DNA from: Norana najaformis
Lineage: Eukaryota; Annelida; Clitellata; Crassiclitellata; Hormogastridae
Direction: 5' to 3'
NCBI GenBank assembly: GCA_964023275.1
Contig: OZ029918.1
Coordinates: 17,960,361-18,024,360, forward strand
Length of the DNA stretch: 64,000 bases
Under the pieces are notes generated by a model. The model searched no databases, was not told the origin of the DNA, and was given only the letters and a program-made list of their open reading frames with translations. Both the position numbers and the translations under genes were made by a program. Shown here in pieces: positions 34,341 through 62,331 of the stretch (position 1 is the stretch's first letter; every line of letters starts with the position of its first letter).

Positions 34341-34625
34341 AATTAATGCAATTTTTATCATGCACTGTTTAGATCATATCTAGTCTGCAGTAAGTAGCTA
34401 TTTAATGCGTACTGTACTAGATATTTTCTAATTCCCATCTGTCATCAAAAGTCCAAACACCATGAACCAAGTATGAAGATTTGAGTTTACAATTATGAAA
34501 ATTTTATTGCATATTACCATAAACTTTTGCCTATTTGATCAGGTACATGTACTCCAACTGCTTGACTCCGAATGCATATGCATTTAACCTATTCATCTGG
34601 TACTCAAATCAGTGCGTAATATTAA
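34341..34625. other. Unassigned DNA between the two RTE copies
   Basis: AT-rich with no frame; separates the relic integrase gene from the minus-strand RTE element. Confidence 0.4.
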
Positions 34626-34637
34626 GGCAGGGAGACA

Positions 34638-37600: not shown

Positions 37601-37952
37601 ATATCGCTCTTCTCCAGTAGCTATTGAGTCGTCCTCAGGCCTGGAGGCTCCACCATTGACGACTATCTTTAGATCATGAATTATGCTTGTCATGACAGTT
37701 TTCTTGGCAAAAAACAGAGGTGGTTTGCCGTTGCCTTCCTCTGGTTTGCCTGCCGTGCCCGTTCATTCCTCTCTTATAATATAAGAGAGTACTAACAGTT
37801 CGCCCCACGAGAAGGTGGGCACGGCGGACTTTAGTCCGCTCGCCCAGGTCGGGTTCGAGTCTACGCTCATAGAGTCGTCGGTCAAATCACCTCCCTGTTT
37901 TACTCCCTTGGAGTATACTCCATGTGAGTGGCGAGTCGGACCTTCGTGAACC
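34638..37952 (-). mobile_element. RTE (BovB-like) LINE, full length, TSD GGCAGGGAGACA
   Basis: A 3.3-kb copy of the same family as 29941-33249 in the opposite orientation. It is flanked by a perfect 12-bp duplication, GGCAGGGAGACA, at 34626-34637 and 37953-37964. The minus-strand ORF from 37693 holds the AP endonuclease (GTWNVRSMQLGKLEVIKGEM, then IGDFNAKVGQ), the linker and the first half of RT. It is stopped by TGA at 35798-35800 and TAG at 35618-35620, both in the same frame. The rest (35551-34622) includes GVRQGCILSPTLFNLYAERI, YADD at 35411-35422 and the post-RT domain. With only two nonsense changes in about 1000 codons it is the better-preserved copy. Its 5' leader is longer than in the plus-strand copy. 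Confidence 0.9.
35798..37693 (-). pseudogene. RTE ORF: endonuclease and first half of RT
   Basis: A 631-codon open stretch. AP endonuclease occupies about residues 75-310: GTWNVRSM at the start, ETRWKGQGHF, APTSVAEEEEH, GDFNAKVG, then DYMLVKQRW and CGTDHELLVA. A charged linker reaches about residue 470, and RT begins with KAPGTDGIPIEM and IPIFKKGDAKECDNYRTIAL. It ends QAGFRKARGT at the TGA. The reading frame continues after the stop, so this is one nonsense mutation in the original single ORF. Confidence 0.85.
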
Positions 37953-38523
37953 GGCAGGGAGACAGTCTACCAGATATGTTGTTTTTAAATTTATCAGCCT
38001 TCGTTACATTAATTTTGTCTTTTTAAACAGCTATATAATCATTTATGATTTTAAATTTTTATTTTCCAGCTAGTATTTTCCTTTCTGTCTCACTTGTCAG
38101 ATAAGTTTTAATTATTCATTTCTTCTTTGTATCTATTTTGGTGTCATTGTGTGCGGACATCGTGTGACCTGTGTTTTCTGTTTTATTACCTGATGGCACA
38201 GTGGAATTCCAACCAAAATGTTGTAATTGTTTATGGTTTCTAGGTCCACACTAATACTGGCTGGCCTTCTTTTAATTTTCTGTGTTCTTGAGTCCTCCAT
38301 GAACTGAAGAACTGCTCTTCTGTTACTTAGGTCATGCCTATTATCTACTGTGCTTAGTTTCCTTGTGTCTTTAACTTCCGTCTCTTACTCTGGCTACCTC
38401 ATTAAGTAGCCCGCTTTTGTACTTTATTTAGTTCATTATAAACTCCTCCTTAGCAAATCTGATGGAAATAGGTCTGCTGCTAGATTTACTCATGCATCGC
38501 TACGGTCTGTTCTGTTTTGGAAC

Positions 38524-39192
38524 TTGGCTCAAGCCCATTCATTTTATCTTATTCCTGGTACTGCTGCATTTTCAGCTCACTCATATATCCTACTGCTATC
38601 TAATATCAGTAACATTAAGTTCCGCCCTGGGTTGATTGTAATTTCACACAGAACATCTGTTGCACGTCATGTATTGCCTATGTATTTGTTTTTGTTGCTT
38701 CTTTTGGCTGGTGATGTTGAAATAAATCCTGGACCAGTTAGATTTCAGAGTTTGGATATCAGTCAGTTAAATATTTGTGCCCTTCATAATAAAGCTGCTG
38801 ACCTAAACAATTTCCTTTGTGAGCATTCCTTGCACACACTTACCCTTACTGAGACCAGGCTTCATCCTAGTGACACACCTGGATTCATTTCTGACCTTAC
38901 TCCCCCAACTTTCTCTATGCTGAATGAACCTCGGTGCAGTGGTAATGGTGGTGGGCTTGCCTTTCTTTTTAAGTCATATCTGCCACTGAAAAAATTCACT
39001 CTGTCTGTTCTTGCACCCAAGTCATTTGAAGTCCTGGCTGCTACTGTCATTTCGGGCAATAAACAGGTATTGCTTGTAAATATTTATCGTCCACCATCCT
39101 TCTCTTTGACTGATTTTCTTAATGAATTCCAGACACTACTTGAATATTTGATTTCCAACCCCTCTGAAATAGTTATTATGGGTGACTTTTAA
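38524..39192 (+). pseudogene. LINE ORF2 N-terminus with 2A-like peptide and AP endonuclease
   Basis: A 222-codon frame. Residues 1-62 include a hydrophobic stretch (MYLFLLLLLA). The 2A-like motif G-D-V-E-I-N-P-G-P follows at residues 63-71 (38710-38736), then VRFQSLDISQLNICALHNKA, where the endonuclease begins, TLTETRLHPSDTPGF and VNIYRPPSFSLTDFL. In 2A peptides the ribosome skips the bond between the last Gly and Pro. This would release a short hydrophobic leader of 70 residues from the endonuclease/RT protein. The start codon is uncertain because upstream frames are closed; the first in-frame residue is an AUG-like codon choice by the reading frame only. The frame breaks at GDF. Confidence 0.75.
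38710..38736 (+). promoter_or_regulatory. 2A-like ribosome-skipping motif
   Basis: Encodes GDVEINPGP, a full match to the D-(V/I)-E-x-N-P-G-P consensus. A Leu-rich helix precedes it and PVRF follows. The skip would occur between codons 38731-38733 and 38734-38736. Confidence 0.75.
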
Positions 39193-40320
39193 TATTCTTC
39201 TTGATGTAACTTGACGTAACATTGTTCTTCATCATTTCTTGATATGTTGGAAGGGTTTGACATGAAACAACTTGTTACCTTTCCTACACATAATAAAGGC
39301 CACACCTTGGATGTCTTGATAACTCGTTCTGATTCGAATTCCCTTCATTCTGTCACTCCTGTTGAGTCCTATCTATCAGATCATGTTGCAATTTTTTTAA
39401 ATTTGACTTCCCATTTAAACCACCCCCAAATTACAAAACTCTTAAATTTCATCCTTGGCACAAAATTGATCTAAATAAGCTGAAGAATGATATCTTAACA
39501 TCTCCATTGTGGTGAGCTCCTGCACAAACATCTAATGAGCTAGCTATATAGTTCCAGCCTACTTTAACTGAGCTTCTTGACAGGCAAATTCCTTTTAGAA
39601 CCATGAGAGTGATAGAATGCACACCACAGCCTTGGTTCAACTCTGCCATTTCTGAAGCTAAATGTTGCAGAAGTCAGTTAGTGCGTTGGTGGATGGCTTT
39701 GCTGCGTTCTCTGCTACCTAAGACCTAGACAGTGAATTTTTGACCTTTTATGCTGATAAGATTTCAGGTATTAGGCTGAAATTTTTTGGTTATTCGGTAT
39801 CTGATAAATTTCTTCATCCTAGTTTTTTTCCTCCATTCTTAGATTACTTTCAGCCAACAACTCTTGCAGAGGTTTGCAGACTCATATTTTCTTCACCTAG
39901 CGAAATCCATCTCATTGACACCATTCCTACATCTTTTCTGAAAGAATGCTTTGATGTCCTGGGTCTGACCATTACATCAATTATCAATTTCTCATTGCTT
40001 GAAGGATCCTTCCCATCTGCTTTTGCTCATGCCATAGTTCATCCTCTGCTAAAGAAACCTTCTACTGACCTGGGTGACCTGTCTAATTTCAGACCCATCT
40101 CAACTTTAAATTTTGTATCTAAAATTCTTCAAGGGGGAGTTTTGAATTGTATGCAAACCCACCTATCTTCCAACTTGCTAATCTCTCCATTTCAGTCCAC
40201 TTACTGGAAGTTTCATTCAACAGAATCTGCACTTCTTGCTGTTCATAATGATATCATGTGCTCCATGGATAAGGGTAAGGATATCAAGGACTTTAAGATC
40301 ATGCGGTTAGTGAACTAGTT

Positions 40321-45440: not shown

Positions 45441-46109
45441 CATGTCACAGTTTCCCACAACAACCAGGTTTCAAGTACCTCCCCAACTTTTCTCAAAAAC
45501 TTGTCAGAATTCACACGCACTTTGGCTATAGTCTTGCTTGTTCATTCAGATCTGTTTACTGCACCTGCAAGCACTACAGACGATTTTGCTGAACAGCTCA
45601 AAAGAACTATGTCACTCACACTAGATAAAGTCGCCTCTGTTCACACCTGTTATTGGTGATCTTCTAAACCTATAACAAGGTGGTTTTCCTCAGAAACAAT
45701 AAAGGCTAAGAGAGAACGTCATGGACTAGAGCGAACATGGAAAAGTTCAGACCTAGAAGAGGACAGACAGTGCCACCTCACAAACAAGCTCATAAATTAC
45801 TCTAAGAGCTCATTACTGCAGCCAGCTGAAAAGTGCTTAATCCGCTCACAACCAATGGCGCATCTCCCAGTAATCTTGTGCATTCAAAGGATGCTGTCAT
45901 TTGCCTATGTCAGAACAAGAGAACCTGAAACTATGTCCTGACTTTGCTTAATTTTTGCTGACAAAATTAACAATCTGAAATGTCAGATTGCTCAGTGTAT
46001 TACTTATCTAATTTGGAGTGACTTTCTGCTTGACTCTGACTTCTCTGGTACTGCCTTTAATGACATTCCACCTGTCACATACTTTGAAGTCCTGTCTCTT
46101 CTTAATCAC
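45440..46109 (+). pseudogene. CR1-type LINE (family 3), segment 1: end of endonuclease and linker
   Basis: A frame around 45560-45660 (FAEQLKRTMSLTLDKVASV) is followed by WFSSETIKAKRERHGLERTW in another frame, the linker between endonuclease and RT in CR1-type proteins. From about 45955 the frame FADKINNLKCQI, then PPVTYFEVLSLLNH, leads to the edge of the LTR insertion at 46109. The frame continues at 61450 with IVPKCSPVNFIPTS. Confidence 0.65.
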
Positions 46110-47638
46110 TGTAGACTGAATCTATATATGTTCTCGCTATGTTAATCAATTTTAGTTGATTTTGCTATTGTATGAACTATGCATATAATTGACATGGTTT
46201 TGCGTATGTTAGAATAAGCGTTTGTGTTGACTAACGCGATTACTCACTTAAGATACATGGCCGGCTTAGGGCGTTTAAACTAACCAAAATAGCAAGGCCA
46301 GCATAGGCTCTAAAAATATACTAATTACGGGGAACAATGAATGGGTTTCTGAACCATTTTTACGGGGGATCAACGCGGATGTTGATAGATTGTTTTATTC
46401 GCAATCTGCAAAAGTTTGCGAGTCATTTCGAAGGAGATTTCAAACCGATGCTTCGATTGCCAGCCAATCGGGATTTTACTTGGGGGATTTTCAGCCAATG
46501 GCGGCACGTTGCCATTGGAAGTAGCCAGCCAATAGGGGGGCGCAGTGGACGTAACTCCTTATCATTAGTAAACAAGGAGCAGACGATTCTCTCAACGAAG
46601 GACGCTGAAATCACTGCGAATGTGGGTGAAAGATGCAGACGACACTTTCGGCCAACCGTTTGACGATGTCGATTCGCGGTGAAAACCGTTGAAGAAGTTC
46701 AGTTCACGGCTGGATTTTGGGCAGGAAGGTCCTAGTTACAATTCAGCGTGACTCCGAGAAATAAGTGATCAGTTGCAGACTTGTCAAGTCGAACTGTATT
46801 CTCGATTAATGAGCATACACAGGCTCATGTGTTACGGGTTCTTCACCTGTGTTTCGGTTGCGAACTGACAAAGTGTTCAGCAAAAAACTAACGTCTGGAA
46901 GTTTGGATTAATTCCATGTAATTGCTTCGAAACGGACTTAGCGGCGCGAGTTGAAAGTCTTCGACTCTACTGTGCAACCACATCCCGTCAAGGAACATTC
47001 CTTCGGACGATAACGATCGAATTGCGTGGATTCTCATCCTTGAACAGCAAGGAATTCGCTCCAAATACCTTCTACGAAAGACTCTTATCCAATGGTCTAC
47101 GAGGTATGTCGGCGTGGTGAAAAGAATCGTTTGTGCAGAGACAGCTAGTGGTGAGTGACAATCTTATCCAACTACGTCCATGCAAGCTCACTGCAACCTA
47201 CAGTGAAACTGTTCAGACTTCATCAGAGTCAGTACACAGGGGAAAATGGCCATCCAAGCTTGTGGGTGGGTAGTGTTAAAGATCTAGGCTTGATAAGAAG
47301 CTGGCCTTAATTAAGCATTAATTAAGTCATTGAACTATATATAATACATTGATTGATTTGCAACAATTGACTTTGTTCATTCTTATTCAATCAGACATTG
47401 TAATACAAGATGGTAGTGGAAAGATACGAGCTATTGTAATAACATTACAATTTCCGCTAGATATTGCATGTTGATTCGAGTCTGACATATAATTATCATA
47501 TCAGGAGACAAAACCCCAATTAACATGTATATCTACCTACAGCCTAAACAAGCTTGTAGGTACCATGAGGTAATGTAAAGTGACTGCCATCTATAGTCAC
47601 TAGATCTAGACAAAGGAGCATTTAGAAAGGGGGTTACA
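46110..47638 (+). repeat. Left LTR (LTR1)
   Basis: Starts TGTAGACTGAATC and ends GGGGTTACA. It contains CCAAT boxes at 46464, 46495 and 46529 and an inverted one at 46514. It differs by eye from LTR2 only at 46493 (A; G in LTR2 and LTR3). A 108-codon frame inside (46337-46663) is probably not coding, because it is not kept in the related solo LTR at 20003. Confidence 0.92.
46464..46533 (+). promoter_or_regulatory. CCAAT-box cluster in the LTR
   Basis: CCAAT at 46464-46468, 46495-46499 and 46529-46533 and inverted ATTGG at 46514-46518. The three direct boxes keep almost the same spacing in the diverged solo LTR (20343, 20375, 20409). This suggests NF-Y-type sites in the U3 promoter. It repeats in LTR2 and LTR3. 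Confidence 0.55.
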
Positions 47639-47975
47639 TCTATTTGGGAGCTCGTCGTCCGGGATAGAACTTGCATCTATTTGGAGACCGACTGGGATAG
47701 AACTTGCCTATATTGAGGTCTCATTGTCCACAGACAACTGGGAGTTCGAATTCAGGAATAGAATCCTTGGATTATTCTGGATTGGATGGTTGGTTGAGAA
47801 AACTAAATCATCGGATTTGTATGACGTGTAGAATAAACGTCATTAACAAGTGCATGTGATTGCATAAATACTGAGGTCAAAGCCCAGTAGTTGTAATTGT
47901 TGAGAAGAGTAGAGAATTATATAGTGCCACCAGTGCCTATATTGAATATTAAGGAAACAATCCTTAACATACAGA
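47639..47975 (+). promoter_or_regulatory. Leader with candidate tRNA primer-binding site
   Basis: A stretch TGGGAGCTCGTCGTCCGGGA at 47645-47664 resembles a primer-binding site for tRNA-Pro with a three-base insertion. It lies within an imperfect direct repeat (47637-47673 and 47674-47706). The gag start is at 47976. The same leader occurs at 54542-54878. Confidence 0.45.
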
Positions 47976-50900
47976 ATGGCTGCAGAATTGCAAAAACTTG
48001 TGAAGGTAGCCATGGACCTCGGATATAAGGATGAGGAACTAAGGAGGTATGTTGAACAGAGACAGGAGGAGAAGAAACGACAGGAGGAGAAGGAGATAGA
48101 ACGAGAAGACAAGAGGAGGCAAGAAGCTCTAGAGGACAAGAGGAGGCAAGAAGGGCTCGAGCGAGAGGAAAAGAAAAGACAAGAAGAGCTTGAGCATAAG
48201 AAAAGACAAGAAGAGCTAGAGCATAAGAAAAGGCAAGAAGAGCTTGAACGAGAGAAAAAGCAAGAAGAGCTTGAACGAGAGGAAAGGAGAAGGCAAGAAG
48301 AGAGAGAAGATAAGAGACGTCAAGAAGATCTCGAGATGGAACGGAGTAGGATGGAATATGAATTCAGGCTGCGTGAGTTAGAGGCACGAACAGCAGTTGA
48401 AGTGCAAAGAGCTGAGAGTCGTGAGTCAATACATCAGGAACCAGTGGTAGCTGCAAACAGACCAAACCACAACTCTAAGTTTGTTCGAATGCCAGTTTTC
48501 AGTGAAGACAAAGACTGTCTTGATGCTTATCTACTGAGATTTGAGAGGACATGTCAAGCATTTGAAGTACCAGAAGAGATTTGGGCAATAACCTTAGCCA
48601 GATCGTTAAATGGCAAGGCACTGGAAGTGTACCAGAGACTACCTGTGGAGAGTTCGCAGAACTATGAGGTTCTTAAGCAGGAACTTCTGAAGAGATTCAG
48701 GTTGACAGAAGGAGGATACCGGAAGAAATATAAGCAGAGTCAAATGGAGACAGGAGAGACGCCTCTTCAGTATATTGAAAGACTTAAGAGGTACCTTCAT
48801 CAATGGATGTTGATGGCAGGATTTGAACAGACGTTTGAGGATTTGCAAACGATGTTGTTGAGAGATCAGTTCTTCGTGACCTGCGGAAAAGACCTGAGAG
48901 TATTTCTCAAAGAGAAAGGTAAGCTTAGCTTATCACAGATGGTGGAATGTGCACAGGCCTACTTGGATGCACATGATATGGAACATGGCAAGGGAAATGG
49001 TGGAGAGAAACCTAAGAACCACCAATTTAATAAGTCTGATAAGAAAGGCAATTTCGAAAGTCAGAACAAAGCCCAAGCTAAAGTTCAAACAGGAGGATGG
49101 AATGGAAGCAAGGGTCCATTCAGACAAGAGTTCAAGTCGGGTTGGAACTTCGACAGGAGAACCAAACCTGTTAATAACGAAGGGACTAGTCAACAGGGTT
49201 GTTGGACCTGTGGATCTCTGAACCACAGAAGAAATGCATGTCCCAAGAATAACCGAAGTGACCGAGTTCACACGGTGGCATGTATACACAATGAAAACAC
49301 GATGGCGTGCGAAGAGCATGAACAATCAATACGGAATATTGATGAAACAGAAGTCAAGATTGCCTTCTGTAAATGTCAAAAGACACTGGACAGGAATCAG
49401 TTGTCGAAAAGAGATGAGGTTAAGAAACCTGAAACCAGTGTGGTGAAAGGTAACTTCACTGGGAAGGCTTTAGTCAATGGGAGGTTAGTTGACTGTCTGT
49501 ACGACACAGGGTCAACGTGCTATGTGGTGAAATCTAATTTGGTGAATCCTACGCAGTATACAGGACGTAAAGTGAATTGTAAGCTGGCAGATGGATCATC
49601 AAAACCGTTCAGAACAGCATACATAGATGTCAAAGACATATATTATGTTGGCAGGGTTGAAGCAGTTGTGATGGACAATCCTGTGAGTGACTTAATCATA
49701 GGAGTTGTTACTGGCAAACCCAGATTGGAAAATAAACAAGAGAACAGCGGTCAAACGAGTGATTCAGCTGCACAAGTTTGCCAATTGAGCAATATGATAA
49801 GTGGGCAGAATGCCAATATTTGTTCAGGTCAAGCGAGGGGAGGAGGAAAACCGTTGGCTGTAAGCAGTGTTGAGCCTAGCTGTGGCCAAGGTAATGACGT
49901 AACAGTAAGAAATGACGTCGATGATTTGAATTCGCATGCAATAGCCGACGAAGGTCGAGGTCATTTGATAGCAGCGTGTGAAACACGTGCACAGGTTAAG
50001 CAAAGCCCTGAAATGAAGAAACTGAAATCTTTAAAGATCACTAGTTTACCAGATGTGAAACTTAGTGTGGAAGAAATCAGTAACTTGCAGAAGCTAGATG
50101 AAACTCTGACAAAATGTTGGAAGAGTTTGCACGAGTCTAATTCCAGTGAAGGTAGACGGAATCATGAGTACGAAGTGAAAAAGGGATTGCTGTACAAGCA
50201 TGGCAAAGAGGTAATGAGTAACCAAGTCAGCTATAAGCTAGTGGTACCAAAGACTCTGAGAGACACAGTGATGACAGTTGGACACAATGCCTTGTTGTCA
50301 GCTCACATGGGAGTAAAGAAGACCACGTTGAAAGTCAGTCAAGAGTTTTACTGGCCGGGATTAAATCAGGATGTGAAAAGATTTGTCATGAGTTGTGACT
50401 TATGTCAAAGGTTTGCGGGAAAAGATTCTGTAAGCAGAGCACCATTGGGACATTTGCCACTAATCGATGTTCCATTCAGAATGATCTCTGTGGATTTGAT
50501 CGGACCGATCGAACCTAGATCTAGCAAAAGCAATCGGTATGTGTTGACAATCATTGACATGAGTACCAGATATCCTGAGGCAGTACCGTTGAGAGGGATT
50601 ACCACAGAGGAAGTGGCTGAAGCTCTATTCGAAGTATATTGCCGAATGGGAATTCCTGAGAGGATCCATACAGATCGTGGAAGCCAGTTCACATCTGACA
50701 TGATGGCGGAAGTCAATAAATTGTTATTGATCCGACACACATTAACTAGTCCTTACCATGCCATGGGTAATGGATGTGTCGAGAGGCTTAATGGCACCAT
50801 TAAGACTGCTCTAAAGAAATTGATTGTGGAACAACCCAAGGAATGGGATCGTTTCCTTGCGCCTTTGTTGTTTGCACTGAGAGATGCTGTCCATGAAAGC

Positions 50901-51644
50901 CATGGATTCAGTTCTTTTGAGCTGATGTTCGGGAGGAGTTGTCGAGGAGTTGTGAAAATCCTGAGAGAGTTGTGGACAAAAGAAGAAGTTGATGAGGAAG
51001 TGAAGGATGCATACAACTATGTGTTAGATTTGAGAGAAAGGATTGAGGAGACCTGTAAGATTGCACAAAGCGAAATAGAAAAGTCGCAAAGCAAGAACAA
51101 GAAGTATTATGACAAGAAGTCGAGGATGAGAAAATTTGAGATTGGTGACAAGGTATTTCTGTTGATACCTGTCAAGACCAATAAATTAATGGTTCAGTGG
51201 GAAGGACCGTATGTAATCCAAGATCGAATTGGAGATTATGATTATCGGGTTGAGATAGCACCAGATAAGGTGAAAACGTATCATGTGAACATGCTCAAGA
51301 AATATTATGAGCGTGATGCCGTGAGAGCCAATGATATGATAGAAGAAGAGGAAATGGTGGCATCAGTAGTCACAGTCGTGAGGGATGAATCAGAAGGTGA
51401 GAATGAAGAAGAGTTGTTATCTATGTACAACAGTGTTCAGAAGGAGACATACCGACATGTTGACATTAACCCTGAACTTGAAGGAGTGAAGAGGAAGGAG
51501 TTAGAGGAACTGTTGCATGAGTTCCGTGACATTTTCTCTGATGTGCCTGGAAGGACAGATGTAGTCGAGCATGACATAAAGCTGACTAGTAATGAACCAG
51601 TAAGATCTAAGGCTTATCCGACACCTTATGGTTTACGGAAATAG
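47976..51644 (+). CDS. Gag-protease-integrase polyprotein, first unit
   Basis: 1222 codons. Residues about 20-145 are a charged coiled coil with 9-residue KKRQEELEH-type repeats. About 165-335 is a capsid-like Gag domain of the type related to SCAN (YLLRFERTCQAF, then WAITLARSLNGKALEVYQRL). A CCHC zinc knuckle is at 409-422 (CWTCGSLNHRRNAC). The protease active site DTGS is at 510-513. The integrase HHCC finger is at H770, H777, C807, C810, and the DDE core at D840, D900, E936 (35 residues between the last two). A GPY/F-like region (VQWEGPYVI) lies near 1075. The frame runs on into the start of RT (SKAYPTPYGLRK) and stops at UAG 51642-51644. It acts in cytoplasmic particles and, for integrase, in nuclear insertion. 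The chosen start is the first ATG after the leader. Confidence 0.92.
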   Translation: MAAELQKLVKVAMDLGYKDEELRRYVEQRQEEKKRQEEKEIEREDKRRQEALEDKRRQEGLEREEKKRQEELEHKKRQEELEHKKRQEELEREKKQEELEREERRRQEEREDKRRQEDLEMERSRMEYEFRLRELEARTAVEVQRAESRESIHQEPVVAANRPNHNSKFVRMPVFSEDKDCLDAYLLRFERTCQAFEVPEEIWAITLARSLNGKALEVYQRLPVESSQNYEVLKQELLKRFRLTEGGYRKKYKQSQMETGETPLQYIERLKRYLHQWMLMAGFEQTFEDLQTMLLRDQFFVTCGKDLRVFLKEKGKLSLSQMVECAQAYLDAHDMEHGKGNGGEKPKNHQFNKSDKKGNFESQNKAQAKVQTGGWNGSKGPFRQEFKSGWNFDRRTKPVNNEGTSQQGCWTCGSLNHRRNACPKNNRSDRVHTVACIHNENTMACEEHEQSIRNIDETEVKIAFCKCQKTLDRNQLSKRDEVKKPETSVVKGNFTGKALVNGRLVDCLYDTGSTCYVVKSNLVNPTQYTGRKVNCKLADGSSKPFRTAYIDVKDIYYVGRVEAVVMDNPVSDLIIGVVTGKPRLENKQENSGQTSDSAAQVCQLSNMISGQNANICSGQARGGGKPLAVSSVEPSCGQGNDVTVRNDVDDLNSHAIADEGRGHLIAACETRAQVKQSPEMKKLKSLKITSLPDVKLSVEEISNLQKLDETLTKCWKSLHESNSSEGRRNHEYEVKKGLLYKHGKEVMSNQVSYKLVVPKTLRDTVMTVGHNALLSAHMGVKKTTLKVSQEFYWPGLNQDVKRFVMSCDLCQRFAGKDSVSRAPLGHLPLIDVPFRMISVDLIGPIEPRSSKSNRYVLTIIDMSTRYPEAVPLRGITTEEVAEALFEVYCRMGIPERIHTDRGSQFTSDMMAEVNKLLLIRHTLTSPYHAMGNGCVERLNGTIKTALKKLIVEQPKEWDRFLAPLLFALRDAVHESHGFSSFELMFGRSCRGVVKILRELWTKEEVDEEVKDAYNYVLDLRERIEETCKIAQSEIEKSQSKNKKYYDKKSRMRKFEIGDKVFLLIPVKTNKLMVQWEGPYVIQDRIGDYDYRVEIAPDKVKTYHVNMLKKYYERDAVRANDMIEEEEMVASVVTVVRDESEGENEEELLSMYNSVQKETYRHVDINPELEGVKRKELEELLHEFRDIFSDVPGRTDVVEHDIKLTSNEPVRSKAYPTPYGLRK

Positions 51645-51656
51645 GTAGACCAGGAG

Positions 51657-52853
51657 TTGGAAGCAATGTTGAAGAATGGGATCATAGAAAGATCTGATTC
51701 AGCATATGCTGCGCCTTTGGTTGTTGTGAAGAAGGCTGATGGGTCGAATCGATTGTGTTGCAACTACAAAGAGTTGAACAAGATAACAATATTTGATCCA
51801 GAACCGATGATGTCGAACGATGACGTCTTCAATAAGCTGAGTGGAAGTCAGATATACAGCAAGTTTGATTTCTGCAAAGGATATTGGCAAATACCAATGA
51901 GGGAGGAAGTCAAGGATTTGACCACTTTCATTTGTGACAAAGGGTTGTATCGATTCAAGGTTATGCCGTTTGGATTGGTCAACAGTGCTTCAAGTTACAA
52001 CCGTATGATCAGGAAGATACTTGAAGGGTCAACAAACCTTGAGAGCTATGTTGACGATATTTTGGCTCATACTAAAGGTTGGAAACATCACCTTAGTGTT
52101 TTGAGGGAATTCTTTACCAGAGTCAGGAGAGCGAAATTGATGTTGAAGCCCAAGAAGTGTAGTGTTGGGTACTTGAAAATAGATTTTCTGGGACACACCA
52201 TAGAAGGTGATATGATTAGCCCGAAGGCTGAGTCAGTTCACAAGATTGCAGGATTGCCAATTCCTAAGACTAAGAAGCAAGTGCGTAGTTTCCTTGGAGC
52301 AGTGAATTACTATCGTCGATTCATACCAAAGTGTGCAGAGAAAATGAAACCACTGACTGACTTAACAAGGAAAAATGAGAGAAATGTGGTTGAATGGACA
52401 CCTGAACTTGAAAGGTCATTCAAGGAACTTAAAGAAGCGTTGACAGGAGCTCCAATATTGAGATTGCCTGATTTAGAAAGAGAGTTTGTGCTTCAGACAG
52501 ATGCTTCAGATAGTGGCATAGGAGCTGTCTTGATGCAGGAAATTGAGGGAATCAAACACCCAGTGGCATATGCAAGTAGGAAGCTAGTACCTCGAGAGAG
52601 AAAGTATTCTGTTGAGGAGAAAGAATGTTTGGCCATGGTGTGGGGTGTGCGGAAGTTCGAGAGATATTTGTTTGGATGGGAGTTTGTGGTGGAGACAGAT
52701 CATTGTGGACTCCAATACCTTAAGACAGGGAAAATAACCAATGCTAGAGTGATGAGGTGGTACTTAGCCTTGCAGAATTATAATTTCAAGGTGAGGTATA
52801 TAAAGGGATCTGAGAATGTAATTGCAGATTACCTTAGTAGAAGTTTAGAGTAA
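51657..52853 (+). CDS. Reverse transcriptase-RNase H, first unit
   Basis: 398 codons from the first ATG, in the same frame as the upstream ORF and separated from it only by the UAG at 51642-51644. RT motifs: NRLCCNYKELNK, KFDFCKGYWQI (catalytic D71), MPFGLVNSASSYNRM and YVDD at 131-134 (52047-52058). RNase H follows with LQTDASDSGIGAVL (D282), an EEKECLAMVW segment, VETDHCGLQYL (D348) and a final NVIADYLSR. All catalytic residues are present. Its first ATG lies inside the conserved N-terminal part of RT, so by itself the ORF lacks the very start of the domain. Production would need read-through of the UAG or reinitiation. Confidence 0.9.
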   Translation: MEAMLKNGIIERSDSAYAAPLVVVKKADGSNRLCCNYKELNKITIFDPEPMMSNDDVFNKLSGSQIYSKFDFCKGYWQIPMREEVKDLTTFICDKGLYRFKVMPFGLVNSASSYNRMIRKILEGSTNLESYVDDILAHTKGWKHHLSVLREFFTRVRRAKLMLKPKKCSVGYLKIDFLGHTIEGDMISPKAESVHKIAGLPIPKTKKQVRSFLGAVNYYRRFIPKCAEKMKPLTDLTRKNERNVVEWTPELERSFKELKEALTGAPILRLPDLEREFVLQTDASDSGIGAVLMQEIEGIKHPVAYASRKLVPRERKYSVEEKECLAMVWGVRKFERYLFGWEFVVETDHCGLQYLKTGKITNARVMRWYLALQNYNFKVRYIKGSENVIADYLSRSLE

Positions 52854-53012
52854 GTAAGAGATTAAGTAATAAGTCTGTAAGATAAGTTAGTTGTAGAAGA
52901 ATGTAGATAGTGTTTGATTGGTATAATTAAGTGTGTGATTGCTACATGCGAGAAATATTATGTGATTCGTTTGTTAAAAATTTATGCTAAATTTTCCTGA
53001 GTAGGAGAGTGT
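52854..53012 (+). promoter_or_regulatory. 3' untranslated end with weak polypurine tract
   Basis: Non-coding, ending GAGTAGGAGAGTGT directly before LTR2. This is the position of the plus-strand primer in LTR elements, although the tract is only moderately purine-rich. The same sequence lies at 59757-59915. Confidence 0.5.
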
Positions 53013-54541
53013 TGTAGACTGAATCTATATATGTTCTCGCTATGTTAATCAATTTTAGTTGATTTTGCTATTGTATGAACTATGCATATAATTGACATGG
53101 TTTTGCGTATGTTAGAATAAGCGTTTGTGTTGACTAACGCGATTACTCACTTAAGATACATGGCCGGCTTAGGGCGTTTAAACTAACCAAAATAGCAAGG
53201 CCAGCATAGGCTCTAAAAATATACTAATTACGGGGAACAATGAATGGGTTTCTGAACCATTTTTACGGGGGATCAACGCGGATGTTGATAGATTGTTTTA
53301 TTCGCAATCTGCAAAAGTTTGCGAGTCATTTCGAAGGAGATTTCAAACCGATGCTTCGATTGCCAGCCAATCGGGATTTTACTTGGGGGATTTTCGGCCA
53401 ATGGCGGCACGTTGCCATTGGAAGTAGCCAGCCAATAGGGGGGCGCAGTGGACGTAACTCCTTATCATTAGTAAACAAGGAGCAGACGATTCTCTCAACG
53501 AAGGACGCTGAAATCACTGCGAATGTGGGTGAAAGATGCAGACGACACTTTCGGCCAACCGTTTGACGATGTCGATTCGCGGTGAAAACCGTTGAAGAAG
53601 TTCAGTTCACGGCTGGATTTTGGGCAGGAAGGTCCTAGTTACAATTCAGCGTGACTCCGAGAAATAAGTGATCAGTTGCAGACTTGTCAAGTCGAACTGT
53701 ATTCTCGATTAATGAGCATACACAGGCTCATGTGTTACGGGTTCTTCACCTGTGTTTCGGTTGCGAACTGACAAAGTGTTCAGCAAAAAACTAACGTCTG
53801 GAAGTTTGGATTAATTCCATGTAATTGCTTCGAAACGGACTTAGCGGCGCGAGTTGAAAGTCTTCGACTCTACTGTGCAACCACATCCCGTCAAGGAACA
53901 TTCCTTCGGACGATAACGATCGAATTGCGTGGATTCTCATCCTTGAACAGCAAGGAATTCGCTCCAAATACCTTCTACGAAAGACTCTTATCCAATGGTC
54001 TACGAGGTATGTCGGCGTGGTGAAAAGAATCGTTTGTGCAGAGACAGCTAGTGGTGAGTGACAATCTTATCCAACTACGTCCATGCAAGCTCACTGCAAC
54101 CTACAGTGAAACTGTTCAGACTTCATCAGAGTCAGTACACAGGGGAAAATGGCCATCCAAGCTTGTGGGTGGGTAGTGTTAAAGATCTAGGCTTGATAAG
54201 AAGCTGGCCTTAATTAAGCATTAATTAAGTCATTGAACTATATATAATACATTGATTGATTTGCAACAATTGACTTTGTTCATTCTTATTCAATCAGACA
54301 TTGTAATACAAGATGGTAGTGGAAAGATACGAGCTATTGTAATAACATTACAATTTCCGCTAGATATTGCATGTTGATTCGAGTCTGACATATAATTATC
54401 ATATCAGGAGACAAAACCCCAATTAACATGTATATCTACCTACAGCCTAAACAAGCTTGTAGGTACCATGAGGTAATGTAAAGTGACTGCCATCTATAGT
54501 CACTAGATCTAGACAAAGGAGCATTTAGAAAGGGGGTTACA
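53013..54541 (+). repeat. Middle LTR (LTR2), mosaic
   Basis: 1529 bp. It has G at 53396 like LTR3 (LTR1 has A), but at 53787, 53798, 53883, 54141 and 54380 it has the LTR1 bases and not those of LTR3. A switch from LTR3-like to LTR1-like thus lies between 53396 and 53787. Confidence 0.9.
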
Positions 54542-54878
54542 TCTATTTGGGAGCTCGTCGTCCGGGATAGAACTTGCATCTATTTGGAGACCGACTGGGA
54601 TAGAACTTGCCTATATTGAGGTCTCATTGTCCACAGACAACTGGGAGTTCGAATTCAGGAATAGAATCCTTGGATTATTCTGGATTGGATGGTTGGTTGA
54701 GAAAACTAAATCATCGGATTTGTATGACGTGTAGAATAAACGTCATTAACAAGTGCATGTGATTGCATAAATACTGAGGTCAAAGCCCAGTAGTTGTAAT
54801 TGTTGAGAAGAGTAGAGAATTATATAGTGCCACCAGTGCCTATATTGAATATTAAGGAAACAATCCTTAACATACAGA
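54542..54878 (+). promoter_or_regulatory. Leader and candidate primer-binding site, second unit
   Basis: Copy of 47639-47975, no difference seen. Confidence 0.45.
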
Positions 54879-57800
54879 ATGGCTGCAGAATTGCAAAAAC
54901 TTGTGAAGGTAGCCATGGACCTCGGATATAAGGATGAGGAACTAAGGAGGTATGTTGAACAGAGACAGGAGGAGAAGAAACGACAGGAGGAGAAGGAGAT
55001 AGAACGAGAAGACAAGAGGAGGCAAGAAGCTCTAGAGGACAAGAGGAGGCAAGAAGGGCTCGAGCGAGAGGAAAAGAAAAGACAAGAAGAGCTTGAGCAT
55101 AAGAAAAGACAAGAAGAGCTAGAGCATAAGAAAAGGCAAGAAGAGCTTGAACGAGAGAAAAAGCAAGAAGAGCTTGAACGAGAGGAAAGGAGAAGGCAAG
55201 AAGAGAGAGAAGATAAGAGACGTCAAGAAGATCTCGAGATGGAACGGAGTAGGATGGAATATGAATTCAGGCTGCGTGAGTTAGAGGCACGAACAGCAGT
55301 TGAAGTGCAAAGAGCTGAGAGTCGTGAGTCAATACATCAGGAACCAGTGGTAGCTGCAAACAGACCAAACCACAACTCTAAGTTTGTTCGAATGCCAGTT
55401 TTCAGTGAAGACAAAGACTGTCTTGATGCTTATCTACTGAGATTTGAGAGGACATGTCAAGCATTTGAAGTACCAGAAGAGATTTGGGCAATAACCTTAG
55501 CCAGATCGTTAAATGGCAAGGCACTGGAAGTGTACCAGAGACTACCTGTGGAGAGTTCGCAGAACTATGAGGTTCTTAAGCAGGAACTTCTGAAGAGATT
55601 CAGGTTGACAGAAGGAGGATACCGGAAGAAATATAAGCAGAGTCAAATGGAGACAGGAGAGACGCCTCTTCAGTATATTGAAAGACTTAAGAGGTACCTT
55701 CATCAATGGATGTTGATGGCAGGATTTGAACAGACGTTTGAGGATTTGCAAACGATGTTGTTGAGAGATCAGTTCTTCGTGACCTGCGGAAAAGACCTGA
55801 GAGTATTTCTCAAAGAGAAAGGTAAGCTTAGCTTATCACAGATGGTGGAATGTGCACAGGCCTACTTGGATGCACATGATATGGAACATGGCAAGGGAAA
55901 TGGTGGAGAGAAACCTAAGAACCACCAATTTAATAAGTCTGATAAGAAAGGCAATTTCGAAAGTCAGAACAAAGCCCAAGCTAAAGTTCAAACAGGAGGA
56001 TGGAATGGAAGCAAGGGTCCATTCAGACAAGAGTTCAAGTCGGGTTGGAACTTCGACAGGAGAACCAAACCTGTTAATAACGAAGGGACTAGTCAACAGG
56101 GTTGTTGGACCTGTGGATCTCTGAACCACAGAAGAAATGCATGTCCCAAGAATAACCGAAGTGACCGAGTTCACACGGTGGCATGTATACACAATGAAAA
56201 CACGATGGCGTGCGAAGAGCATGAACAATCAATACGGAATATTGATGAAACAGAAGTCAAGATTGCCTTCTGTAAATGTCAAAAGACACTGGACAGGAAT
56301 CAGTTGTCGAAAAGAGATGAGGTTAAGAAACCTGAAACCAGTGTGGTGAAAGGTAACTTCACTGGGAAGGCTTTAGTCAATGGGAGGTTAGTTGACTGTC
56401 TGTACGACACAGGGTCAACGTGCTATGTGGTGAAATCTAATTTGGTGAATCCTACGCAGTATACAGGACGTAAAGTGAATTGTAAGCTGGCAGATGGATC
56501 ATCAAAACCGTTCAGAACAGCATACATAGATGTCAAAGACATATATTATGTTGGCAGGGTTGAAGCAGTTGTGATGGACAATCCTGTGAGTGACTTAATC
56601 ATAGGAGTTGTTACTGGCAAACCCAGATTGGAAAATAAACAAGAGAACAGCGGTCAAACGAGTGATTCAGCTGCACAAGTTTGCCAATTGAGCAATATGA
56701 TAAGTGGGCAGAATGCCAATATTTGTTCAGGTCAAGCGAGGGGAGGAGGAAAACCGTTGGCTGTAAGCAGTGTTGAGCCTAGCTGTGGCCAAGGTAATGA
56801 CGTAACAGTAAGAAATGACGTCGATGATTTGAATTCGCATGCAATAGCCGACGAAGGTCGAGGTCATTTGATAGCAGCGTGTGAAACACGTGCACAGGTT
56901 AAGCAAAGCCCTGAAATGAAGAAACTGAAATCTTTAAAGATCACTAGTTTACCAGATGTGAAACTTAGTGTGGAAGAAATCAGTAACTTGCAGAAGCTAG
57001 ATGAAACTCTGACAAAATGTTGGAAGAGTTTGCACGAGTCTAATTCCAGTGAAGGTAGACGGAATCATGAGTACGAAGTGAAAAAGGGATTGCTGTACAA
57101 GCATGGCAAAGAGGTAATGAGTAACCAAGTCAGCTATAAGCTAGTGGTACCAAAGACTCTGAGAGACACAGTGATGACAGTTGGACACAATGCCTTGTTG
57201 TCAGCTCACATGGGAGTAAAGAAGACCACGTTGAAAGTCAGTCAAGAGTTTTACTGGCCGGGATTAAATCAGGATGTGAAAAGATTTGTCATGAGTTGTG
57301 ACTTATGTCAAAGGTTTGCGGGAAAAGATTCTGTAAGCAGAGCACCATTGGGACATTTGCCACTAATCGATGTTCCATTCAGAATGATCTCTGTGGATTT
57401 GATCGGACCGATCGAACCTAGATCTAGCAAAAGCAATCGGTATGTGTTGACAATCATTGACATGAGTACCAGATATCCTGAGGCAGTACCGTTGAGAGGG
57501 ATTACCACAGAGGAAGTGGCTGAAGCTCTATTCGAAGTATATTGCCGAATGGGAATTCCTGAGAGGATCCATACAGATCGTGGAAGCCAGTTCACATCTG
57601 ACATGATGGCGGAAGTCAATAAATTGTTATTGATCCGACACACATTAACTAGTCCTTACCATGCCATGGGTAATGGATGTGTCGAGAGGCTTAATGGCAC
57701 CATTAAGACTGCTCTAAAGAAATTGATTGTGGAACAACCCAAGGAATGGGATCGTTTCCTTGCGCCTTTGTTGTTTGCACTGAGAGATGCTGTCCATGAA

Positions 57801-58547
57801 AGCCATGGATTCAGTTCTTTTGAGCTGATGTTCGGGAGGAGTTGTCGAGGAGTTGTGAAAATCCTGAGAGAGTTGTGGACAAAAGAAGAAGTTGATGAGG
57901 AAGTGAAGGATGCATACAACTATGTGTTAGATTTGAGAGAAAGGATTGAGGAGACCTGTAAGATTGCACAAAGCGAAATAGAAAAGTCGCAAAGCAAGAA
58001 CAAGAAGTATTATGACAAGAAGTCGAGGATGAGAAAATTTGAGATTGGTGACAAGGTATTTCTGTTGATACCTGTCAAGACCAATAAATTAATGGTTCAG
58101 TGGGAAGGACCGTATGTAATCCAAGATCGAATTGGAGATTATGATTATCGGGTTGAGATAGCACCAGATAAGGTGAAAACGTATCATGTGAACATGCTCA
58201 AGAAATATTATGAGCGTGATGCCGTGAGAGCCAATGATATGATAGAAGAAGAGGAAATGGTGGCATCAGTAGTCACAGTCGTGAGGGATGAATCAGAAGG
58301 TGAGAATGAAGAAGAGTTGTTATCTATGTACAACAGTGTTCAGAAGGAGACATACCGACATGTTGACATTAACCCTGAACTTGAAGGAGTGAAGAGGAAG
58401 GAGTTAGAGGAACTGTTGCATGAGTTCCGTGACATTTTCTCTGATGTGCCTGGAAGGACAGATGTAGTCGAGCATGACATAAAGCTGACTAGTAATGAAC
58501 CAGTAAGATCTAAGGCTTATCCGACACCTTATGGTTTACGGAAATAG
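54879..58547 (+). CDS. Gag-protease-integrase polyprotein, second unit
   Basis: Its 1222-residue translation is identical to that of 47976-51644, 6903 bp upstream. It has the same domains and the same UAG, here at 58545-58547. Identity of both bodies, against six scattered differences among the LTRs, means the duplication is more recent than the original insertion, or that the bodies were homogenised. Confidence 0.92.
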   Translation: MAAELQKLVKVAMDLGYKDEELRRYVEQRQEEKKRQEEKEIEREDKRRQEALEDKRRQEGLEREEKKRQEELEHKKRQEELEHKKRQEELEREKKQEELEREERRRQEEREDKRRQEDLEMERSRMEYEFRLRELEARTAVEVQRAESRESIHQEPVVAANRPNHNSKFVRMPVFSEDKDCLDAYLLRFERTCQAFEVPEEIWAITLARSLNGKALEVYQRLPVESSQNYEVLKQELLKRFRLTEGGYRKKYKQSQMETGETPLQYIERLKRYLHQWMLMAGFEQTFEDLQTMLLRDQFFVTCGKDLRVFLKEKGKLSLSQMVECAQAYLDAHDMEHGKGNGGEKPKNHQFNKSDKKGNFESQNKAQAKVQTGGWNGSKGPFRQEFKSGWNFDRRTKPVNNEGTSQQGCWTCGSLNHRRNACPKNNRSDRVHTVACIHNENTMACEEHEQSIRNIDETEVKIAFCKCQKTLDRNQLSKRDEVKKPETSVVKGNFTGKALVNGRLVDCLYDTGSTCYVVKSNLVNPTQYTGRKVNCKLADGSSKPFRTAYIDVKDIYYVGRVEAVVMDNPVSDLIIGVVTGKPRLENKQENSGQTSDSAAQVCQLSNMISGQNANICSGQARGGGKPLAVSSVEPSCGQGNDVTVRNDVDDLNSHAIADEGRGHLIAACETRAQVKQSPEMKKLKSLKITSLPDVKLSVEEISNLQKLDETLTKCWKSLHESNSSEGRRNHEYEVKKGLLYKHGKEVMSNQVSYKLVVPKTLRDTVMTVGHNALLSAHMGVKKTTLKVSQEFYWPGLNQDVKRFVMSCDLCQRFAGKDSVSRAPLGHLPLIDVPFRMISVDLIGPIEPRSSKSNRYVLTIIDMSTRYPEAVPLRGITTEEVAEALFEVYCRMGIPERIHTDRGSQFTSDMMAEVNKLLLIRHTLTSPYHAMGNGCVERLNGTIKTALKKLIVEQPKEWDRFLAPLLFALRDAVHESHGFSSFELMFGRSCRGVVKILRELWTKEEVDEEVKDAYNYVLDLRERIEETCKIAQSEIEKSQSKNKKYYDKKSRMRKFEIGDKVFLLIPVKTNKLMVQWEGPYVIQDRIGDYDYRVEIAPDKVKTYHVNMLKKYYERDAVRANDMIEEEEMVASVVTVVRDESEGENEEELLSMYNSVQKETYRHVDINPELEGVKRKELEELLHEFRDIFSDVPGRTDVVEHDIKLTSNEPVRSKAYPTPYGLRK

Positions 58548-58559
58548 GTAGACCAGGAG

Positions 58560-59756
58560 TTGGAAGCAATGTTGAAGAATGGGATCATAGAAAGATCTGA
58601 TTCAGCATATGCTGCGCCTTTGGTTGTTGTGAAGAAGGCTGATGGGTCGAATCGATTGTGTTGCAACTACAAAGAGTTGAACAAGATAACAATATTTGAT
58701 CCAGAACCGATGATGTCGAACGATGACGTCTTCAATAAGCTGAGTGGAAGTCAGATATACAGCAAGTTTGATTTCTGCAAAGGATATTGGCAAATACCAA
58801 TGAGGGAGGAAGTCAAGGATTTGACCACTTTCATTTGTGACAAAGGGTTGTATCGATTCAAGGTTATGCCGTTTGGATTGGTCAACAGTGCTTCAAGTTA
58901 CAACCGTATGATCAGGAAGATACTTGAAGGGTCAACAAACCTTGAGAGCTATGTTGACGATATTTTGGCTCATACTAAAGGTTGGAAACATCACCTTAGT
59001 GTTTTGAGGGAATTCTTTACCAGAGTCAGGAGAGCGAAATTGATGTTGAAGCCCAAGAAGTGTAGTGTTGGGTACTTGAAAATAGATTTTCTGGGACACA
59101 CCATAGAAGGTGATATGATTAGCCCGAAGGCTGAGTCAGTTCACAAGATTGCAGGATTGCCAATTCCTAAGACTAAGAAGCAAGTGCGTAGTTTCCTTGG
59201 AGCAGTGAATTACTATCGTCGATTCATACCAAAGTGTGCAGAGAAAATGAAACCACTGACTGACTTAACAAGGAAAAATGAGAGAAATGTGGTTGAATGG
59301 ACACCTGAACTTGAAAGGTCATTCAAGGAACTTAAAGAAGCGTTGACAGGAGCTCCAATATTGAGATTGCCTGATTTAGAAAGAGAGTTTGTGCTTCAGA
59401 CAGATGCTTCAGATAGTGGCATAGGAGCTGTCTTGATGCAGGAAATTGAGGGAATCAAACACCCAGTGGCATATGCAAGTAGGAAGCTAGTACCTCGAGA
59501 GAGAAAGTATTCTGTTGAGGAGAAAGAATGTTTGGCCATGGTGTGGGGTGTGCGGAAGTTCGAGAGATATTTGTTTGGATGGGAGTTTGTGGTGGAGACA
59601 GATCATTGTGGACTCCAATACCTTAAGACAGGGAAAATAACCAATGCTAGAGTGATGAGGTGGTACTTAGCCTTGCAGAATTATAATTTCAAGGTGAGGT
59701 ATATAAAGGGATCTGAGAATGTAATTGCAGATTACCTTAGTAGAAGTTTAGAGTAA
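58560..59756 (+). CDS. Reverse transcriptase-RNase H, second unit
   Basis: Its 398-residue translation is identical to that of 51657-52853, with the YVDD box at 58950-58961. It follows the same in-frame UAG. Being complete in catalytic residues, the RT/RNase H portion of both units looks intact apart from the stop that separates it from integrase. Confidence 0.9.
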   Translation: MEAMLKNGIIERSDSAYAAPLVVVKKADGSNRLCCNYKELNKITIFDPEPMMSNDDVFNKLSGSQIYSKFDFCKGYWQIPMREEVKDLTTFICDKGLYRFKVMPFGLVNSASSYNRMIRKILEGSTNLESYVDDILAHTKGWKHHLSVLREFFTRVRRAKLMLKPKKCSVGYLKIDFLGHTIEGDMISPKAESVHKIAGLPIPKTKKQVRSFLGAVNYYRRFIPKCAEKMKPLTDLTRKNERNVVEWTPELERSFKELKEALTGAPILRLPDLEREFVLQTDASDSGIGAVLMQEIEGIKHPVAYASRKLVPRERKYSVEEKECLAMVWGVRKFERYLFGWEFVVETDHCGLQYLKTGKITNARVMRWYLALQNYNFKVRYIKGSENVIADYLSRSLE

Positions 59757-59915
59757 GTAAGAGATTAAGTAATAAGTCTGTAAGATAAGTTAGTTGTAGA
59801 AGAATGTAGATAGTGTTTGATTGGTATAATTAAGTGTGTGATTGCTACATGCGAGAAATATTATGTGATTCGTTTGTTAAAAATTTATGCTAAATTTTCC
59901 TGAGTAGGAGAGTGT

Positions 59916-61444
59916 TGTAGACTGAATCTATATATGTTCTCGCTATGTTAATCAATTTTAGTTGATTTTGCTATTGTATGAACTATGCATATAATTGACA
60001 TGGTTTTGCGTATGTTAGAATAAGCGTTTGTGTTGACTAACGCGATTACTCACTTAAGATACATGGCCGGCTTAGGGCGTTTAAACTAACCAAAATAGCA
60101 AGGCCAGCATAGGCTCTAAAAATATACTAATTACGGGGAACAATGAATGGGTTTCTGAACCATTTTTACGGGGGATCAACGCGGATGTTGATAGATTGTT
60201 TTATTCGCAATCTGCAAAAGTTTGCGAGTCATTTCGAAGGAGATTTCAAACCGATGCTTCGATTGCCAGCCAATCGGGATTTTACTTGGGGGATTTTCGG
60301 CCAATGGCGGCACGTTGCCATTGGAAGTAGCCAGCCAATAGGGGGGCGCAGTGGACGTAACTCCTTATCATTAGTAAACAAGGAGCAGACGATTCTCTCA
60401 ACGAAGGACGCTGAAATCACTGCGAATGTGGGTGAAAGATGCAGACGACACTTTCGGCCAACCGTTTGACGATGTCGATTCGCGGTGAAAACCGTTGAAG
60501 AAGTTCAGTTCACGGCTGGATTTTGGGCAGGAAGGTCCTAGTTACAATTCAGCGTGACTCCGAGAAATAAGTGATCAGTTGCAGACTTGTCAAGTCGAAC
60601 TGTATTCTCGATTAATGAGCATACACAGGCTCATGTGTTACGGGTTCTTCACCTGTGTTTCGGTTGCGAACTGACAAAGTGTTCAGCAAGAAACTAACGT
60701 TTGGAAGTTTGGATTAATTCCATGTAATTGCTTCGAAACGGACTTAGCGGCGCGAGTTGAAAGTCTTCGACTCTACTGTGCAACCGCATCCCGTCAAGGA
60801 ACATTCCTTCGGACGATAACGATCGAATTGCGTGGATTCTCATCCTTGAACAGCAAGGAATTCGCTCCAAATACCTTCTACGAAAGACTCTTATCCAATG
60901 GTCTACGAGGTATGTCGGCGTGGTGAAAAGAATCGTTTGTGCAGAGACAGCTAGTGGTGAGTGACAATCTTATCCAACTACGTCCATGCAAGCTCACTGC
61001 AACCTACAGTGAAACTGTTCAGACTTCATCAGAGTCAGTACACGGGGGAAAATGGCCATCCAAGCTTGTGGGTGGGTAGTGTTAAAGATCTAGGCTTGAT
61101 AAGAAGCTGGCCTTAATTAAGCATTAATTAAGTCATTGAACTATATATAATACATTGATTGATTTGCAACAATTGACTTTGTTCATTCTTATTCAATCAG
61201 ACATTGTAATACAAGATGGTAGTGGAAAGATACGAGCTATTGTAATAACATTACAATTTCCGCTAGATATTGCATGTTGATTTGAGTCTGACATATAATT
61301 ATCATATCAGGAGACAAAACCCCAATTAACATGTATATCTACCTACAGCCTAAACAAGCTTGTAGGTACCATGAGGTAATGTAAAGTGACTGCCATCTAT
61401 AGTCACTAGATCTAGACAAAGGAGCATTTAGAAAGGGGGTTACA
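59916..61444 (+). repeat. Right LTR (LTR3)
   Basis: 1529 bp ending GGGGTTACA at 61444. It has five bases not shared with LTR1 or LTR2: G at 60690, T at 60701, G at 60786, G at 61044, T at 61283. It shares G at 60299 with LTR2. LTR1 and LTR3, the two original ends, differ at six of 1529 positions by eye (about 0.4%), indicating a young insertion. Confidence 0.9.
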
Positions 61445-62331
61445 ATCACATTGTTCCTAAGTGCTCTCCAGTGAACTTCATACCAACATCACTCATTGTC
61501 TCTTGCTCTGATGTTTTCTCACATCTGATCGCACACTTGGCCAACTTATCTTTTGCTGAAGGCTGTTTTCCATCATGTTTTAAATCAGCATTAGTTACAC
61601 CTTTACTTTAAAAAGCTGAACCTAGACACCAACAACCTCTCAAATTTTAGACCAATCTCCAATCTCAATAACATTTCTAAGATTCTTGAACGTCTCTTCC
61701 TTGCATGGGTTACTTCATCTCTTAACGTCAGTCCTTACCAATCAGCTTACAGTGAAGGCTACTCAACTGAAACTGCTTACCTTCACACACTGGACAACAT
61801 CTTTTCATCTATCGGTACTGGACAGGAATGCTTTTCAGCATACCGCGACCTTAGTGCTGTTTCTGACACTGTCGACCACCATCTGCTTCTTTCTAGAATC
61901 AGTAAAAGCTTTGGTGTGTCTGGGACTGCCTTAAACTGGCTAGCTTCTTACCTCTGCAATCGGTCTCAGCAAGTGGGCATAGGTTCTGCTCGGTCTAAAC
62001 CTTCTTTCTGCACTGCTGGTGTTCCACAGGGATCTGTCCTTGCCCCCTTATTATTCACAATCTTCACTTCACCAGTCAGCCGCATAGCCAACCACTTTGG
62101 AGTCCAGCTACAGCAGTATGCTGATGACACTCAGCTTTAAATTGATTGCTCTGTCACCCACTGATCAGTCTGACAAAGCAAAGCTTGAAGAGTGTCTCTC
62201 TTCTATTCATGAGTGGTTTTGTTTCAGTGGTTTGGCCATAAATCCTGATAAATCTGATAAGTCAATTAAAAGAGGTAATTTAATTTCTTCCCTCCCGTTG
62301 ATGAGCTCTTGTCTTTCCAGGTCTCAGTCCT
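61445..62331 (+). pseudogene. CR1-type LINE (family 3), segment 2: RT core
   Basis: Resumes the LINE broken at 46109: IVPKCSPVNFIPTS, then LSFAEGCFPSCFKSALVTPL, a shifted NNLSNFRPISNLNNISKILE, then YRDLSAVSDTVDHHLLLSRI. Next are GVPQGSVLAPLLFTIFTS, YADDTQL and WFCFSGLAINPDKSD. Frames change at several points. The similarity appears to run to about 62331, where an LTR-like block begins. The last part of the element reappears after it at 63901. Confidence 0.75.

Follow-up and report, generated by a model that had tools for sequence, protein, structure and literature searches.

Recent doubling of a Ty3/gypsy-type element around a common middle LTR in Norana najaformis, with unequal LTR–LTR recombination after insertion as its probable origin

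How does an LTR retrotransposon come to stand in a genome as two head-to-tail copies with one LTR in common? The question is raised by a locus in the Norana najaformis genome (608 Mb, 17 contigs). We analyzed a stretch of 64,000 nucleotides of this genome (C6:17960361-18024360, contig OZ029918.1), hereafter called the window. Three LTRs and two internal regions alternate on the + strand at 46110-61444 of the window in the order LTR–int–LTR–int–LTR. The LTRs align without gaps and are spaced at exactly 6903 bp, and the two internal regions have no difference from each other. The parts of the array are as follows, where LTR offsets are 1-based and derived states are those obtained by the polarization described later.

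46105..46109, no strand: left target-site duplication (TSD), ATCAC, from flank comparison and paralogous host repeats
46110..47638, + strand: LTR1, the outer left LTR, 1529 bp, derived at offsets 384, 775, and 1368 (alignment and polarization)
47639..53012, + strand: internal region 1, 5374 bp, identical to internal region 2
53013..54541, + strand: LTR2, the middle, shared LTR, 1529 bp, derived at 775 and 1368 and ancestral at 384, 786, 871, and 1129 (alignment and polarization)
54542..59915, + strand: internal region 2, 5374 bp (alignment)
59916..61444, + strand: LTR3, the outer right LTR, 1529 bp, derived at 786, 871, and 1129 (alignment and polarization)
61445..61449, no strand: right TSD, ATCAC, from flank comparison and paralogous host repeats

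The 5-bp repeat ATCAC is found on both outer sides of the array. LTR2 has internal sequence at either end and no target duplication, so that a single TSD lies outside the array. The host site is a dispersed repeat, which makes up the inner 576 bp of the left flank, and this flank has 42 other matches (74-86% identity) among the matches listed. Five paralogous copies fetched from these 42 are continuous across the site and carry the target once, though one has three extra bases beside the site and another has small differences. The array thus goes back to one insertion. In a left-flank search of this one assembly, the window locus had no second copy among the best 40 of 182 candidates. The window LTR had no match in plasmids, as expected, and scans of the window with Rfam (gathering threshold) and for tRNAs gave nothing. 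Elsewhere in the window, long frames at 365-2986 (− strand), 29048-33242, 34622-37762 (− strand), and 38410-40318 resemble, by eye, non-LTR retrotransposon endonuclease/RT.

Judging from its coding content, the element is predicted to be of the Ty3/gypsy type with the order gag-PR-INT-RT-RH. Its open reading frames are as follows.

47976..51644, + strand: ORF of 1222 aa with a gag-like part, a protease-like motif, and integrase, which stops in frame upstream of RT
51657..52853, + strand: ORF of 398 aa with reverse transcriptase and RNase H (Pfam)
54879..58547, + strand: second copy of the 1222-aa ORF, with the same stop
58560..59756, + strand: second copy of the RT/RNase H ORF

Pfam detects Integrase_H2C2 and rve in the upstream ORF and RVT_1 and RT_RNaseH in the downstream ORF, and gives no match for the gag or protease parts of the 1222-aa ORF, where a CX2CX4HX4C knuckle and a DTGS protease-like motif were recognized by eye from the translation. 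The integrase domain thus lies upstream of RT, as it does in the Gmr1 clade of Ty3/gypsy according to the available parts of two studies (PMC8220671, PMC6238403), and the likeness is one of domain order. The in-frame stop that separates integrase from RT is present in both window copies (51642-51644 and 58545-58547). In a second array, located on C16, both copies lack this stop, and their frame is broken further upstream, alike in both. A stop common to both window internal regions and absent from C16 fits copying at the DNA level.

The N-terminal part of gag (48088-48335 and 54991-55238) contains a degenerate tandem repeat with periods of 27, 54, 60, and 87 bp, which encodes a lysine-, glutamate-, glutamine-, and arginine-rich stretch and aligns with the copies on C16, C11, and C3 only in broken pieces. 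The segment after the LTR (47639-47665 and 54542-54568) resembles what we take to be a tRNA-Pro primer-binding site with a small insertion. A 108-aa ORF in the LTR was rejected as coding: it contains a stop in 31 of 37 other copies and is shifted in 2 of 37, and its variable sites are spread evenly over codon positions 1, 2, and 3 (36/34/38 in the 37 copies, truncated ones included).

Candidate promoter signals in the LTR, given here for LTR2, have putative functions.

53367..53452, + strand: three CCAAT motifs (offsets 355, 386, and 420) and a GC-rich box, possible promoter
54239..54248, + strand: TATA-like stretch (offset 1227 on), possible promoter

The CCAAT motifs and the GC-rich box together occupy offsets 355-440, and further, shorter TATA-like matches are found at offsets 14, 75, and 1379. 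With several candidate promoters, the LTR sequence allows more than one U3/R boundary. LTR2 has an observed/expected CpG ratio of 0.99; the internal region reaches 0.55, and the window as a whole 0.53.

The positions at which the three LTRs differ should be noted, since the original prediction read them as a crossover point. The six differing sites are where it had put them, its 0-based offsets being 384, 775, 786, 871, 1129, and 1368 in 1-based numbering. The states in the left, middle, and right LTRs are A/G/G at 384, A/A/G at 775, C/C/T at 786, A/A/G at 871, A/A/G at 1129, and C/C/T at 1368, all of them transitions. LTR2 has the right-LTR base at the first site and the left-LTR bases at the other five, as predicted, and the LTR1 base is not seen in LTR2 at 0-based offset 383 in the gap-free alignment of the three LTRs as assembled.

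The differences were polarized with 37 other genomic LTR copies, i.e., the best 40 of 348 candidates minus the three of the window, a set that is biased toward close copies; at least two more full-length copies, found with the C16 LTR, lie outside it (C11:18073017 and C13:26912631). All 37 copies have G at 384, G at 775, C at 786, and A at 871, whereas 1129 is A in 30, G in 6, and a gap in 1, and 1368 is T in 33, C in 2, G in 1, and a gap in 1. Each outer LTR is thereby assigned three derived states. Derived 775 and 1368, two of the five right-hand sites, are common to LTR1 and LTR2 and absent from LTR3, while 384 is private to LTR1 and 786, 871, and 1129 are private to LTR3. LTR2 has no private change. 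It keeps the ancestral base at 384 and shares no derived site with LTR3. A reading of four of the six differences as CpG decay was dropped after polarizing, because only the 384 change is a CpG loss.

A related family is represented at 20003-21512 by a nearly complete LTR (67% identical), about 22-26 kb upstream of the array together with a neighboring opposite-strand (−) LTR fragment (75%) at 23211-23619. Polarizing by these two in-window relatives alone was abandoned, as they are too distant. At 384, 775, and 1368, the 67% relative agrees with the 37 copies; at 786, 871, and 1129, however, its base is that of LTR3, which counts against the history proposed below; where the two conflict, the polarity was taken from the 37 close copies.

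What the mosaic can carry is therefore less than the matching bases alone suggest, since after polarization 2 of 6 sites link LTR2 to a donor. The derived states at 775 and 1368 make descent of the right part of LTR2 from LTR1 well supported, judging from the alignment. The left arm depends on one site, a caveat that the original prediction itself had made and that holds: the pattern is real but statistically thin. A single odd site among six is leftmost by chance in 1 of 6 cases, and 5 of 64 random state patterns give a single switch with the right polarity. In an enumeration of exchange points, none yields the observed states through an exchange of the opposite polarity.

The relative timing of the doubling is clearer. 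The two 5374-bp internal regions have 0 differences, compared with 6 in the 1529-bp LTRs, and are thus more alike than the outer LTRs. Internal regions split since insertion should have accumulated about 21 differences. Identical internal regions between diverged LTRs indicate that the doubling is recent, that is, much younger than the LTR divergence.

These observations are best explained by unequal LTR–LTR recombination after insertion, as the original prediction proposed, to which we assign a probability of roughly 0.72. One Ty3/gypsy-type element would have been inserted once with a 5-bp target duplication, and its two LTRs would then have diverged at six sites by three changes each. More recently, the 3′ LTR of one chromatid would have paired with the 5′ LTR of its partner, presumably a sister chromatid or a nearly identical homologue, and a crossover inside the LTR would have given LTR1-int-LTR2-int-LTR3. 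The LTR2 expected from such an event is 3′-LTR-like on its left and 5′-LTR-like on its right. The right side has this character, whereas no derived site ties LTR2 to LTR3, so that the left arm is without positive support. In this respect, and in that the polarity is not unique to crossing-over, the prediction has to be corrected.

The rest of the family bears on how readily such LTRs recombine. Among the 37 other LTR places, internal sequence adjoins the LTR in nine and is absent from the fetched flanks (at least 700 bp) in 28. Twenty of these 28 are of full length, with an exact 5-bp TSD in 15, a 4-of-5 match in 3, and no match in 2. With the internal 3′ end as query, seven loci among the best 40 of 48 candidates match more than 700 of its 1013 bases with an identity of 93% or higher: one each on C3, C6, C11, C12, and C16 and two on C8. 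The C6 and C16 loci are arrays. C3 and C11 carry single elements; the two LTRs of the former have 0 differences, and those of the latter are separated by 6 substitutions and a one-base gap. The C16 locus (C16:376869-392087) is a second three-LTR array, whose internal regions have 0 differences in 5322 positions. Its LTR1 and LTR2 are the same, and its LTR3 differs at offset 1510 only, where the derived base is common to LTR1 and LTR2, the same right-side kinship as in the window array. This second array is in keeping with active LTR recombination, as are the many solo LTRs of the genome, and such recombination looks common for this family.

The C16 array also has a solo twin. A solo LTR at C16:678655-680181, just under 300 kb from the array, is surrounded by the same flanks, which recur as blast pieces of 94-99% over most of the 8 kb fetched per side, and its TSD, CACCG/GACCG, is imperfect in the same way. 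Array and solo LTR appear to go back to a single insertion in a segment that exists twice, now tandem in one copy and solo in the other. A retained haplotype of 300 kb is unlikely, because the next full-length match to a 1.5-kb query from C16:430 kb is only 75% among the scored places. The outer LTRs of the array differ from each other at 1 of 1525 sites and from the solo LTR at 13-14 of 1518, and the flanks of array and solo LTR have 0.9-4.2% mismatches (0-8% in 500-column steps). Judging from these counts, one crossing-over in an aging element would not explain outer LTRs so alike, which is a point against a simple form of unequal exchange. If the insertion is older than the segment duplication, the array LTRs must have been homogenized since, which could be achieved by repeated rounds of expansion and contraction, by conversion, or by regrowth from a donor. 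No donor was found among the matches listed: the next long match to the internal 3′ end (1009 bp) is 96%, an exact 109-bp piece of this end is present on C13, and the LTR nearest to the array LTRs is the solo twin (98%). We regard it as a tentative and rather doubtful idea that tandem and solo forms interconvert repeatedly and so homogenize the outer LTRs, or that cDNA rebuilds an array where a solo LTR stands; the near-identical array LTRs beside a solo twin would then be a trace of this interconversion, and LTR divergence would misdate such insertions.

Returning to unequal exchange in the window, the first explanation to be weighed against it is an assembly artifact, in which an LTR-int cycle was walked twice or two haplotypes were joined at the LTR. 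The exact identity of the internal regions here and on C16 would be accounted for in this way, and the array, known as assembled sequence, is about 15.3 kb long, which is near long-read length. However, such a fault needs a bubble choice as well to give distinct outer LTRs and a middle mixture of the right polarity. The window contains no N, and two separate arrays occur in the genome. Similar arrays are also described in plants (PMC11899658), and a human locus is listed (PMC3228705), in the available parts of these sources. We consider an artifact unlikely.

A copy made through cDNA is a further route to the same layout. During reverse transcription, an LTR receives its U3 from the 3′ LTR and its R-U5 from the 5′ LTR. 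Ty1-type cDNA recombination in yeast produces multimers that are tandem elements sharing LTRs, as the window copies do, though those multimers are cDNA-made and the window array is only compatible with that. At this locus, the resident element would have been transcribed and reverse-transcribed, and a one-LTR circle would have recombined with the resident copy. The observed states are obtained whether the exchange falls in LTR1, the internal region, or LTR3, so that the polarity which the original prediction took as the signature of crossing-over fits crossing-over but is predicted by the reverse-transcription route as well. When every boundary and exchange point is enumerated, this route works only with a U3/R boundary at 384-774. 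The CCAAT motifs and the GC-rich box could set the start there. A transcript that begins below the TATA-like stretch at offset 1227 would exclude the route. The available part of a rice study (PMC11899658) cites, for yeast, an integration into elements already in place that does not depend on integrase. On the other hand, the resident has to be its own donor, although other copies of the family differ from it by 3-7%, and the same need for a self-donor arises at the C16 array, where the nearest other internal 3′ end is the 96% match given above. The stop before RT in both window copies further means that the enzyme would have to act in trans. The self-donor requirement and this stop make the cDNA route less likely, and we judge it decidedly unlikely. 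We infer that the join was made by crossing-over rather than by cDNA recombination or an assembly fault.

Given unequal exchange, its position depends on the age of the 384 change.

53396..53787, + strand: interval between diagnostic offsets 384 and 775, the conditional exchange zone, where the exchange lies if the 384 change is older than the doubling

The right limit of this interval, which the original prediction gave as the crossover region, stands, as the derived bases at 775 and 1368 place the exchange, if one occurred, firmly left of offset 775 (53787). The left limit does not stand unless 384 predates the doubling, since the 384 change is private to LTR1 and the left part of LTR2 comes from LTR3 only in that case. 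Should the change have arisen in LTR1 after the doubling, there would be no visible mosaic and the exchange could lie anywhere left of 775. This case is a sub-case of unequal exchange and is counted within its 0.72. It is in keeping with A at 384 in 0 of 37 other copies and with the CpG-to-CpA nature of the change, but the internal regions have no difference and LTR2 has no private change. The absence of internal differences makes post-doubling changes rare in a two-epoch Poisson model, so that 384 is probably older. With unequal exchange assumed, the exchange point uniform over the LTR, and three priors, the model gives 0.91-0.98 for a change older than the doubling and 0.02-0.09 for a later one, and CpG hypermutability at 384 would scale both cases alike. 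A late 384 change is thus improbable, and the exchange is likely to lie within offsets 384-774 (53396 to 53787).

Insertion of the array ready-made as a dimer, from a read-through transcript or concatemer, would fit the single outer TSD and is named as a possible origin of rice tandems in the available part of that study (PMC11899658), but we regard it as very improbable, because LTR1 and LTR2 share derived states absent from LTR3 and the probability of all six differences falling in the LTRs and none in the internal regions is P = 0.0007 at equal rates. This value becomes 0.0095, 0.031, and 0.10 if the LTRs mutate 2, 3, and 5 times faster, respectively, and the LTR is richer in CpG, which weakens the support that the counts lend to unequal exchange.

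A tandem array with a common middle LTR is a known kind of event. In the available part of the rice study (PMC11899658), tandem LTR-retrotransposons of rice and other plants have the layout LTR-int-LTR-int-LTR and a single 5-nt TSD, and one rice locus exists as tandem, single element, and solo LTR; the tandem is read there as one insertion, not two. The window array has the same layout and a single 5-nt TSD. It differs in its animal host and in that the internal-versus-LTR counts favor recombination after insertion, whereas the rice authors could not separate this from ready-made insertion. For the HERV-K HML-2 locus at 7p22.1, the available part of another source (PMC3228705) lists a provirus, a tandem-repeat, and a solo-LTR form; this locus is likewise tandem, but is a human endogenous retrovirus and not gypsy. 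A limited literature search gave no mention of a mosaic LTR among the papers listed. What the present locus has in addition is a clear relative timing. The formation of tandem LTR elements was left open in the rice study (PMC11899658, available part), and this locus offers a test usable elsewhere, namely the comparison of internal with outer-LTR differences together with a polarized middle LTR.
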